DNA of 59,798 nt from a bacterium (GTDB lineage: Bacteria; Pseudomonadota; Alphaproteobacteria; Rhizobiales; JAKIUO01). A model generated the notes under the pieces. The model did not search any database. It saw nothing but the letters and a program-made list of their open reading frames with translations, and had not been told where the DNA came from. The number at the start of each line of letters is the position of its first letter. Position 1 is the stretch's first letter. Where the stretch lies: the NCBI GenBank assembly GCA_024228495.1, contig JAAETJ010001080.1:1-59798 (forward strand), in the 5' to 3' direction. This document shows positions 4,557-7,931 of the stretch, piece by piece. Both the position numbers and the translations under genes were made by a program.

Positions 4557-4601
4557 CCATTTTGCTCCAACGAAACATGATTGAATGATCTATTACCAAC
4601 C

Positions 4602-6695
4602 ATGAACAACCAATCAGACTATAGCGATCCCCAATTTCTCACCTGGACAAGCGCTGGCCTCGGCGTTTGCTTGGCTATCGGCCATATCTGGATGAATATA
4701 TTCGGCAATGTCTCGACCCTGCTGCAAAATGGTATTCACTTCGCCGGGTTTGCACTTTTGTGCTCGCTTGTCTATCCTCTCTCTCCCAAGACCTTTGCCA
4801 AATTTCCAGCCTTGCGCGCTCTTGATATCTGGTTTGGGTTAGTGGTAGCGGCTTCGGCGATTTATCTGGTGCTGGCCGAAGACGCCATTTACGCACGAGG
4901 GGTCCGCCTTGTGACGCTGGACTGGATTGCTGGCGTCATCACCATTATCGGCGCCATTGAATTTACCCGCCGCACAACCGGCTGGATCATCCCCATCCTG
5001 ATCCTTATTGCTCTGTCCTATATCAGCTTTTGGGGAGCGCATATTGGCGGCATATTCGCGTTTGGCGGCCTGTCGCTCGAAACCTTGATGTTCCGCTCAA
5101 TTTATGGCGACGACGCCCTGTTCGGCTCCATTGCCGGTATCAGCTCGACCTTTGTATTCATGTTCATCCTGTTTGGGGCCTTTTTGCTGAAATCGGGAGC
5201 CGGACAGTTCATTATTAATCTGTCGCAGGCGGTTGCCGGGCGCTTTGTAGGTGGTCCTGGCTTCGTGGCAATTTTGGCCAGCGGACTGACAGGGACCATT
5301 TCAGGATCCGCCATAGCCAATACCGCGTCCACCGGTGTCATAACCATTCCCATGATGAAAAAAGCCGGGTTTCCAGGGCATTTTGCGGCAGGCGTTGAAG
5401 CCTCGTCTTCCACTGGCGGGCAGTTAATGCCACCCATCATGGGTGCTGGCGCCTTTGTTATGGCCGCCATCACACAAATTTCCTATACGTATATCGTCGC
5501 CATGAGTATCTTGCCTGCCGTGCTGTATTTTGCCTCTGTCGCCTTTTTTGTGCGCATTGAAGCGCGGCGCTCCCATGCCAACCAGCAGGCAGAAGAAGAT
5601 GCCCCCTCGCTCGCGCATGTCATGAAAAATGGCGGCCCATCCTTTATCATTCCCGTCACCTTGTTGATCACTTTGCTGGTCAATGGCTATACTCCGACCT
5701 ATGCTGCAGGCTATGCAATCTTGTCCTGCGTTGCCGCCTCCTGGCTGACACCGCATCGCATGGGCCCCAAAGCCATTTTCGAAGCTCTGTTCCTTGGAGC
5801 CAAAAATATGATCATGACCGCCGTTCTGCTTTGTGCTGTCGGACTGGTTGTCAATGTCATCGCAACGGCTGGGATCGGCAACACCTTCTCCTTGATGATT
5901 TCAAACTGGGCTGGAGGCTCGCTACTCATCGCCTTTGTGCTAGTGGCGCTGGCCTCCTTGATCCTTGGCATGGGGCTACCGGTCACAGCCGCCTATATCG
6001 TGCTAGGCACCTTGTCTGCTCCGGCTCTCTATCAGCTTATATTACAATCACAGATGGTCGATTTGCTGGTTGCCGGGTCCGTTCCAGATACCGCCAAAGC
6101 CATTTTCATGATCGCAGTTCCCGACAAGCTCGCCGCCCTTGGTGCGCCCATGAGCCATATCGATGCCACGGCCATTGTTTCTCAGCTTCCTCTTGAGACC
6201 CTTGGCCTGCTCTATGACAAACTGTTTGATCCAGCCTTAATGCTCACCACTTTGCTGTCAGCTCATATGATCATTTTCTGGCTCTCGCAAGACAGCAATG
6301 TCACCCCACCGGTTTGCCTTGCTGCATTTACAGCCGCCGCCATTGCCAAATCGCCCCCCATGAAAACCGGCTTTTCAGCGTGGAAAATCGCCAAGGGACT
6401 TTATGTCGTGCCCTTGCTATTTGCCTATACCCCCCTGCTCTCGGGTGACTGGCTAAAAATGATGGAAATTTTTGTCTTCGCGCTGTTTGGCTTGTGGATA
6501 TTGAGCGCTGCGGTCGAGGGCTATTGGGAAAACCGGCTGTCCATCATTCCGCGTCTGCTGGGTCTTGGCATCGGCATCGCCCTGATCTGGCCTGCCCCGC
6601 TGCTATTCCACCTGATGGCGCTGGCGGGGTTTGTTGCCTTGTTCGCATGGAACATCAAGTTCCCAAACACGGTGTCAAGCACGAAAGCTGCGTAA
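4602..6695 (+). CDS. TRAP transporter permease, DctQM-fused (TAXI type)
   Basis: Integral membrane permease using ion-gradient driven uptake. About 697 aa with an N-terminal small-subunit-like hydrophobic region (residues about 20-150) followed by a DctM-like large domain (many TM segments, with conserved patches FILFGAFLLKSGAG, SGSAIANTASTGVITIP and GGQLMPPIMGAGAFVMA); a third hydrophobic block forms the C terminus. This fused form is the normal partner of TAXI binding proteins. Start uncertain: TTG 4581 gives seven more residues, and neither start has a strong ribosome-binding site. Belongs to the operon driven from 3364. Confidence 0.88.
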   Translation: MNNQSDYSDPQFLTWTSAGLGVCLAIGHIWMNIFGNVSTLLQNGIHFAGFALLCSLVYPLSPKTFAKFPALRALDIWFGLVVAASAIYLVLAEDAIYARGVRLVTLDWIAGVITIIGAIEFTRRTTGWIIPILILIALSYISFWGAHIGGIFAFGGLSLETLMFRSIYGDDALFGSIAGISSTFVFMFILFGAFLLKSGAGQFIINLSQAVAGRFVGGPGFVAILASGLTGTISGSAIANTASTGVITIPMMKKAGFPGHFAAGVEASSSTGGQLMPPIMGAGAFVMAAITQISYTYIVAMSILPAVLYFASVAFFVRIEARRSHANQQAEEDAPSLAHVMKNGGPSFIIPVTLLITLLVNGYTPTYAAGYAILSCVAASWLTPHRMGPKAIFEALFLGAKNMIMTAVLLCAVGLVVNVIATAGIGNTFSLMISNWAGGSLLIAFVLVALASLILGMGLPVTAAYIVLGTLSAPALYQLILQSQMVDLLVAGSVPDTAKAIFMIAVPDKLAALGAPMSHIDATAIVSQLPLETLGLLYDKLFDPALMLTTLLSAHMIIFWLSQDSNVTPPVCLAAFTAAAIAKSPPMKTGFSAWKIAKGLYVVPLLFAYTPLLSGDWLKMMEIFVFALFGLWILSAAVEGYWENRLSIIPRLLGLGIGIALIWPAPLLFHLMALAGFVALFAWNIKFPNTVSSTKAA

Positions 6696-6705
6696 TGGTC
6701 CCGAA

Positions 6706-6732
6706 TTGCCATTCTCGCTATTGCTATGGCAA
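6706..6732 (+). terminator. Weak hairpin after the TRAP permease
   Basis: TTGCCAT (6706-6712) pairs with ATGGCAA (6726-6732), stem 7 bp, no T-run. The rest of 6733-6857 shows no convincing gene or signal. Confidence 0.3.
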
Positions 6733-6857
6733 GCGCCGCTGTACACGTGCGTATTTTTGATCGGCACACCTATTTCATCACTTACTTACCTAACGATATT
6801 TCGTAATCCAGACAATATGACACCGATGATGAAAAATTGTGTGACTTCCCTTTCAAT

Positions 6858-6937
6858 AGCCCATACCCTGTCTCCTTAAAATGAGTGTGTGAGAAGCCTG
6901 TAAGCACACTTACTTTTAAGGAGACAGGGTATGGGCT
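6858..6937 (+). promoter_or_regulatory. Perfect 24-bp inverted repeat that can hide a ribosome-binding site
   Basis: Left arm 6858-6881 (AGCCCATACCCTGTCTCC then TTAAAA) is the exact reverse complement of 6914-6937, with a 32-nt loop that has further GTGTG/CACAC complementarity. The right arm carries AAGGAG (6918-6923) and ATG (6931-6933) of the small ORF that overlaps truB, so in RNA the hairpin would occlude initiation. A miniature mobile repeat is the main alternative. Confidence 0.75.
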
Positions 6938-7041
6938 GGCTAAAGCCGTTTCCATCTGAAGACGGAAGTTTTAGACCAATTCTAAAAAATGAACAATTAG
7001 TGAAACAAACATGGCCCGACGCAAACGTGGTCAGCCGGTGA
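6931..7041 (+). CDS. Small ORF (36 aa) overlapping the truB start
   Basis: ATG at 6931 is preceded by AAGGAGA at ideal distance (7 nt between AAGGAG and ATG); the frame stays open for 36 codons and stops with TGA at 7039-7041, 31 bp inside truB in another frame. The truB ATG (7011) itself has no clear Shine-Dalgarno, which fits a leader peptide that couples translation. The protein begins MGWLKPFPSEDGS and shows no family I recognise. It could be fortuitous; the evidence is the ribosome-binding site and the arrangement, not homology. Confidence 0.45.
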   Translation: MGWLKPFPSEDGSFRPILKNEQLVKQTWPDANVVSR

Positions 7042-7931
7042 ATGGTTGGCTTATACTCGATAAACCCCTGGAAATCACTTCGACCAGTGCCGTTAATGTG
7101 CTCAAACGTCTGTTTGATGCGCAAAAGGCTGGCCATGCCGGTACTCTCGATCCGCTGGCCTCTGGTGTACTGCCCGTGGCTTTTGGCGAGGCCACCAAAA
7201 CCATGCCCTATGTCATGGACAGCGAAAAGAGCTATCGCTTCATGGTCCGCTGGGGGGAGCAAACCAACACCGATGACGCTCAAGGCAAGACCATCAAAAC
7301 CAACGATCAACGCCCCTCAAAAAACGATATTGAAACCTTGCTGGATGATTTTTCGGGTGAGATCGAGCAAACACCACCCGCTTTTTCGGCCATCCATATC
7401 AAGGGTGAGCGCGCCTACAAGCTGGCCCGGCGAGGCGAGGAGGTCGTCATGCCCTCGCGCCTTGTGCGTATCGATGGCCTGACAATCACCGCGCAGCCCG
7501 ATGCTGATCATTGTGAATTTGAGGTCGATTGCGGAAAAGGCACATATGTACGCGCTTTTGCCCGCGATCTGGGGCAAAAACTGGGCTGCTATGGCCATAT
7601 AGTTGAATTGCGTCGAACGCGCGTCGGGAAGTTCCTTGAACCAATGTCGATTTCACTGGATAAACTGCGTGAGTTAAGCCATAGTGCCGCGGATCGAGAA
7701 GCATTACTTGCAAAACTGCTTTGCGTGGAGACCGCCCTGGACGACATCCCGGAGCTGGCCATAAACGCAAATGACGCCTTTCGACTAAAACAGGGACAAT
7801 CCGTGCTGCTACGTGGCGCAAATGCCCCCATCATAACCGGAGCGGTCTATGCAACCTTGCAAGGCGAACTCATTGCAATCGGCGACGTCGAGCGCGGAGA
7901 GTTAAAGCCAACCAGGGTTTTTAATTTATAG
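7011..7931 (+). CDS. truB: tRNA pseudouridine(55) synthase TruB
   Basis: Forms pseudouridine 55 in the T-arm of tRNAs. 306 aa, normal length. N-terminal NGWLILDKP, catalytic motif GHAGTLDPLASGVLPVA (the Asp of TLDP is the nucleophile), then the YRFMVRWG and CGKGTYVRA blocks and a C-terminal PUA-like region (GELIAIGDVERGELKPTRVF). Followed 34 bp later by rpsO, the conserved order in Proteobacteria; rbfA and infB, which often precede truB, are absent here. The start codon lacks a good ribosome-binding site and lies within the 36-codon ORF. Confidence 0.96.
   Translation: MARRKRGQPVNGWLILDKPLEITSTSAVNVLKRLFDAQKAGHAGTLDPLASGVLPVAFGEATKTMPYVMDSEKSYRFMVRWGEQTNTDDAQGKTIKTNDQRPSKNDIETLLDDFSGEIEQTPPAFSAIHIKGERAYKLARRGEEVVMPSRLVRIDGLTITAQPDADHCEFEVDCGKGTYVRAFARDLGQKLGCYGHIVELRRTRVGKFLEPMSISLDKLRELSHSAADREALLAKLLCVETALDDIPELAINANDAFRLKQGQSVLLRGANAPIITGAVYATLQGELIAIGDVERGELKPTRVFNL

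Follow-up and report, generated by a model that had tools for sequence, protein, structure and literature searches.

What is a long, perfect hairpin doing in front of truB? The window (the whole stretch of alphaproteobacterial DNA analysed here, 59,798 nt) contains, upstream of this gene, an inverted repeat whose 24-nt arms are complementary at every position (24/24, 100%) around a loop of 32 nt. It is the sole perfect pair among the five inverted repeats listed across the whole window (arms of at least 16 nt, distance of at most 120 nt), and the plus strand of 6840-7040 folds at -79 kcal/mol, compared with a mean of -46.2 (SD 4.55) for shuffled versions, none of which (0/200) equalled it (z = -7.2). 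The perfect 24-bp repeat described in an earlier note on this DNA is thus real and lies well above chance. A known Rfam element was ruled out as its identity, the search of the window having returned 0 matches. The same note had pointed to a Shine-Dalgarno sequence in the right arm and to a reading frame starting there that overlaps truB; the frames and the AAGGAG at 6918-6923 of the plus strand are as it described. From these features it had proposed that the hairpin switches the expression of truB and rpsO. What it overlooked is the minus strand, which bears the same Shine-Dalgarno sequence and ATG, running into the relic of a transposase gene (Table 1).

On the minus strand, a tblastn search of the window by itself with an intact TnpA protein (L071) places residues 1-24 at 6864-6793 (75% identity, E = 6e-9), and the same spot is hit with six further TnpA proteins. 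Across 6726-6864, these seven proteins recover nothing beyond codons 1-24 and a weak piece that follows them, while DNA alignment to two further copies in the same genome (contigs C297 and C281) identifies 6769-6864 as the 5' part of tnpA with an internal deletion. The ATG of tnpA and the AAGGAG in front of it both lie within one arm of the hairpin, which is thereby placed over the tnpA start by sequence comparison, and their layout is the same in intact relatives. A catalytic HUH motif and a tyrosine are defining features of the IS200 group (IS200/IS605 family). These residues are absent from the window copy, only 5' pieces of tnpA being found by tblastn in 6726-6864, and neither the 3' part of tnpA nor the right end of the element was found in the window. 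Because only 24 codons and one fragment of tnpA survive, assignment to the family draws on the 5' part together with the relatives, and the window copy reads as a dead member of the IS200 group and not as an active one. A 57-aa open reading frame on the minus strand (6782-6955) was rejected as tnpA, as BLASTP against a TnpA found nothing and its frame differs from that of tnpA.

The start signals on the plus strand exist because the arm at 6914-6937 is the reverse complement of the real tnpA start region. The 36-codon frame, which has no family match in Pfam or NCBIfam, is most likely not a gene, and its Shine-Dalgarno sequence and ATG are a by-product of the palindrome. The earlier note was therefore right that the hairpin masks a ribosome-binding site, but the gene concerned is the minus-strand tnpA of an IS200-type relic and not a frame linked to truB. 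The trap is a general one: where an arm holds the Shine-Dalgarno sequence and ATG of a gene, the opposite strand also shows a Shine-Dalgarno sequence and an ATG, which may pass as a small open reading frame.

Table 1. Features of the window around the hairpin, with strand and basis.
Feature	Position	Strand	Basis or remark
IS200-group insertion sequence relic (left end and 5' part of tnpA)	6769..6994	-	DNA matches to C297, C281 and the C361 relic
tnpA, first 24 codons, in frame, TGA at codon 4	6793..6864	-	ATG 6864-6862; tblastn
Further tnpA fragment past the internal deletion	6769..6791	-	21/23 identical to C297
Shine-Dalgarno sequence of tnpA, AAGGAG	6872..6877	-	7 nt before the ATG, within the 3' arm of the hairpin (tnpA sense)
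Leader hairpin, 3' arm (tnpA sense; Shine-Dalgarno sequence and start codon)	6858..6881	-	inverted repeat and stem survey
Leader hairpin, 5' (masking) arm	6914..6937	-	mirror-image Shine-Dalgarno sequence and ATG visible on the plus strand
Probable left-end subterminal hairpin, TTCCGTC TTCA GATGGAA, one G-T pair	6950..6967	-	by eye
Native truB leader past the element tip	6997..7010	+	13/14 bases as in the truB leader of congener G002
36-codon open reading frame of the earlier note	6931..7041	+	no family match; start region mirrors the tnpA start
truB	7011..7931	+	Pfam TruB_N, E = 1e-52

The earlier note had also suggested looking for further copies of the repeat, and partial copies of the element are indeed present at five other places in the genome. 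A search of the assembly (5.1 Mb, 1254 contigs) with 6830-6960 returned those on C361, C297 and C281, as well as two further matches at E = 2. C297 and C281 run on into IS200-like transposase genes, both interrupted by stops (Y1_Tnp scores of 110.9 and 106.9 bits, respectively, against a cut-off of 23); no transposase remnant was seen at C361, C80 and C738. Comparison with such copies and with TnpA proteins establishes, at the level of sequence, the identity and orientation of the element. Among the six left-end relics of the genome, the full leader hairpin is kept only in that of the window, and another copy in this genome (L021) carries at the same place a distinct 32-bp stem, also perfect, that includes the tnpA ATG. 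A search of plasmid DNA with 6740-7010 gave two weak matches, both in Candidatus Megaera, one of which falls under an annotated IS200/IS605 tnpA.

Several peculiarities of these copies deserve mention in their own right. In the C361 relic (L009, 2533-2567), compared with 6859-6893 of the window, the start of the loop matches at 32 of 35 positions in the opposite orientation; relative to the left end, this is the arrangement that an inversion of the loop between the two arms would leave. The left-end relic of C80 (L147, around 1487-1564) sits inside a perfect 14-bp inverted repeat of its own, ATGAATTTTATTGT, which has 49 nt between its arms and is unlike the leader hairpin. The source genome (G000) holds 25 Y1_Tnp matches, many of them broken or at contig ends and of several distinct types, and a transposase gene of another type in the same genome (L014, on C881) has a short leader stem, GAAAGATCTCC / GGAGATCTTTC, that ends at the ATG as judged by eye.

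The six left-end relics (C1079, C361, C80, C738, C297 and C281) share their left end, while their surroundings differ. The motif AGAATTGGTC at this end is exact in three of the six and has one or two changes in the others. When the six are aligned without gaps on AGAATTGG, 49 of 60 letters agree over the 10 bases outside it, compared with 29.3 (SD 2.3) at random, and agreement drops to near chance beyond about 11 bases. Given conservation to this distance, the left tip of the element lies at about 6993-6996 in the window, uncertain by a few bases. The probable left-end hairpin of the relic has its equivalent, CCGAC..GTCGG, at the left end of intact copies. Past the tip comes native truB leader, as the match to congener G002 shows; from 6987 this match amounts to 26 of 29 bases but partly overlaps the element, so that only the last 14 bases were used. 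A right-end stem (at least 5 bp, perfect, loop of 3-6 nt) was sought in 6690-6775 and none was found; in C297 and C281 a CCGAC..GTCGG hairpin lies behind tnpA. A gene for a DctM-type transporter upstream of the relic ends at 6695, and this gene was not found beside truB in the examined flanks of four congeners. As to gene order, truB is not adjacent to rbfA in the window (4581-7011), the DctM-type TRAP transporter gene lying upstream instead; the sole RBFA match in the genome is on another contig (C498), and by eye the sequence preceding truB in congeners G002 and G004 resembles the end of rbfA.

Leader stems of the same kind recur in related elements. A scan of 84,980 species genomes for relatives of the L021 TnpA yielded 176, of which the best 80 were used; four had no recognisable start and two too little upstream DNA, leaving 74 leaders. 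Twelve of these (L105-L117 without L108; Bacteroidota, Deltaproteobacteria and others) form a more distant group that was separated post hoc. The main type thus comprises 64 leaders (62 database loci, the window and L021), mostly alphaproteobacterial, with L056, whose leader is largely N, counted as a miss. In 46 of the 64 the tnpA start region is covered by a perfect stem of 17 bp or more, and in 50 by one of 12 bp or more; the 46 stems represent 38 distinct right arms, some loci being near-identical copies. Of these 46 stems, 39 incorporate the first nucleotide of the start codon and 38 are perfect over 24-32 bp, and the 32-nt loop of the window compares with 13-21 nt in the other 45. None of 740 shuffled leaders (10 each of the 74 without N, out of 76) reached 12 bp, the maximum being 11, and among other open reading frames of the same loci the single case at or above 12 bp (1/142) was the tnpA of L057, which the filter had missed. 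The leader stem is not universal, since stems fall short of 12 bp in 14 of the 64 leaders and none of the 12 distant ones reaches that length. In L041, L049, L079, L086 and L100, inspected by eye, hardly any sequence separates the left end from tnpA, and both the leader hairpin and the Shine-Dalgarno sequence within it are gone, as if the palindrome had been lost. Behind a hairpin of this kind, intact relatives encode the complete transposase, and the intact relative L038 matches Y1_Tnp at 8e-41 and NCBIfam transpos_IS200 at 3.7e-42.

Covariation was scored in 21 of the 64 leaders that have equal geometry, picked once the stems were known, leaving out the near-identical L048, L051, L053 and L054 as well as two leaders with an altered or missing left arm (L061 and L092). 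Standard pairs fill 97.8% of the 540 cells, a figure biased upwards by the way in which the leaders were chosen, and 11 of the 27 stem pairs show changes on both sides. The covariation score was reached by none of 500 shuffles and the number of pair types by one of 500, and sliding the partners by one base lowers pairing to 48.5-49.2%. Covariation and pairing in these leaders thus show that it is the stem as such that is maintained. The same layout, with gaps, appears in a wider alignment of 43 leaders, the window among them.

Could the hairpin nevertheless act on truB, opening on a signal so that the 36-codon frame is translated and translation is coupled to truB? The plus-strand hairpin does mask an AAGGAG and an ATG, the frame does overlap the truB start, and the truB leader (...TTAGTGAAACAAACATG) has, by eye, no good Shine-Dalgarno sequence, just as the earlier note had remarked. 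However, an obvious truB Shine-Dalgarno sequence is also absent, by eye, in three of four congeners (G003 has GGAGG), so that the hairpin is not needed to explain a weak one. A truB match was obtained in 25 of 25 genomes searched, the source genome included, and TruB of the four congeners is 78-90% identical, but the 200 nt preceding truB were examined in 24 relatives, these congeners included, and in all 24 the longest perfect inverted repeat there measures 5-9 bp, against 24 bp in the window. The conserved pairing that the earlier note had proposed to look for in relatives is therefore absent from every one of them, an outcome that the note itself had held to speak against its proposal. Furthermore, the hairpin ends at 6937, 73 nt before truB, and thus leaves the start region of truB uncovered; the frame stops 31 bp inside truB in another reading frame, which is a poor layout for coupling; it lacks a match in Pfam or NCBIfam; and no sigma-70-like promoter was found in 6680-7050, although this last point is weak evidence. 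A limited literature check, covering titles and the beginnings of abstracts, brought up no truB hairpin, and one title concerned autogenous control of rpsO in mycobacteria. Missing from all 24 relatives and located within insertion sequence DNA, the proposed switch of truB and rpsO was rejected as very improbable, and a false lead towards a new truB switch is thereby removed.

The other readings accept a mobile origin in one way or another. A stand-alone small mobile palindrome or MITE, with no tie to a transposase, would account for partial copies elsewhere, some of them (C361, C80 and C738) with no transposase remnant seen, but the element runs straight into minus-strand tnpA codons, and in intact relatives a comparable hairpin precedes a complete transposase gene. 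This reading was rejected on the first of these grounds and has next to no probability; the small mobile palindrome that the earlier note had offered as its alternative comes close to the truth. Only marginally more credible, and still very improbable, is co-option of the IS200 leader, its hairpin or leader RNA being kept for truB mRNA stability or as a small RNA. In one variant, to which we give the same slight chance, transcripts into truB would carry the hairpin and the mirror start as an RNA stability element or start-site decoy for truB-rpsO in a single lineage. In favour of co-option, pairing in the stem has stayed complete while tnpA has decayed, and none of the five other left-end relics retains the whole hairpin, which could weakly hint at selection. 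Perfection of this kind is nevertheless not significant: if each lineage is taken to have gained about 2 substitutions in 75 nt (4 counted between the window and C297), a rough estimate gives 1.3 expected changes in the 48 arm bases and none 28% of the time, so that selection is not called for. Moreover, the arms of a palindrome can correct each other, which could also keep a stem perfect. The 131-bp region 6830-6960 has no match at E 0.01 in 60 relative genomes, and there is thus no sign of long retention. A precedent exists in the small RNA from the 5' part of Salmonella IS200 tnpA, which regulates host genes as outlined in PMC12594629.

The element upstream of truB is thus very probably a decayed IS200-group insertion sequence on the minus strand, and its hairpin the 5' leader of tnpA. 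In an intact element, the tnpA transcript would fold such that the stem holds the Shine-Dalgarno sequence and start codon closed, keeping transposase synthesis very low; that the leader hairpin represses translation is suggested by work on enterobacterial IS200. Here tnpA is broken by the stop at codon 4, the internal deletion and the loss of its 3' part, and the hairpin is therefore left with no working gene to regulate. The hairpin is an ordinary mobile-element relic, and the absence of evidence for any role in truB expression suggests that the relic has none. Beyond this locus, many IS200 elements, mostly of alphaproteobacteria, have long perfect leader stems, which in most cases extend into the start codon and whose pairing is preserved through compensatory changes.

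How does this leader compare with known systems? An inverted repeat in the 5' untranslated region of tnpA is common in the IS200 group, and the stem-loop of Salmonella sequesters the ribosome-binding site, while a small RNA from the tnpA leader regulates host genes (all as outlined in PMC12594629). IS200C of Escherichia coli (L143), a copy of the founding member of the group that was found as a control by a plasmid search with TnpA, resembles the window in having an IS200-type transposase and a leader stem whose 3' arm holds the Shine-Dalgarno zone; unlike it, the window copy is a relic. In IS200C, the Shine-Dalgarno zone lies in an outer stem of 13 bp that excludes the ATG and is interrupted towards the loop, whereas in the type compared here most stems are longer and perfect and extend over the first nucleotide of the start codon, in the proportions given above. 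This contrast in stem length, perfection and inclusion of the start codon did not come up among the titles, abstract openings and passages that the searches on IS200 leaders covered, although it may still have been described. Rfam STnc490 (RF01405) covers the IS200C leader just upstream of tnpA (326-449 of L143, tnpA from 459) with 146 bits, and its threshold is missed by the window and by the two loci of the alphaproteobacterial type that were tested (L144 and L021). ISPpu9 of Pseudomonas putida is a different element, likened here by description only, in which structure in the 5' untranslated region of the mRNA controls the transposase, as outlined in PMC8450116. The layout is shared by alphaproteobacterial IS200-group elements, for instance those of Ruegeria (L144) and Roseovarius gaetbuli (L045), where, as in the window, a left-end hairpin is followed by a long perfect leader hairpin and then by tnpA; their arm sequences are others and their loops measure 14 nt instead of 32 nt, and, unlike in the window, they keep their right end and an uninterrupted tnpA frame of 138 codons.
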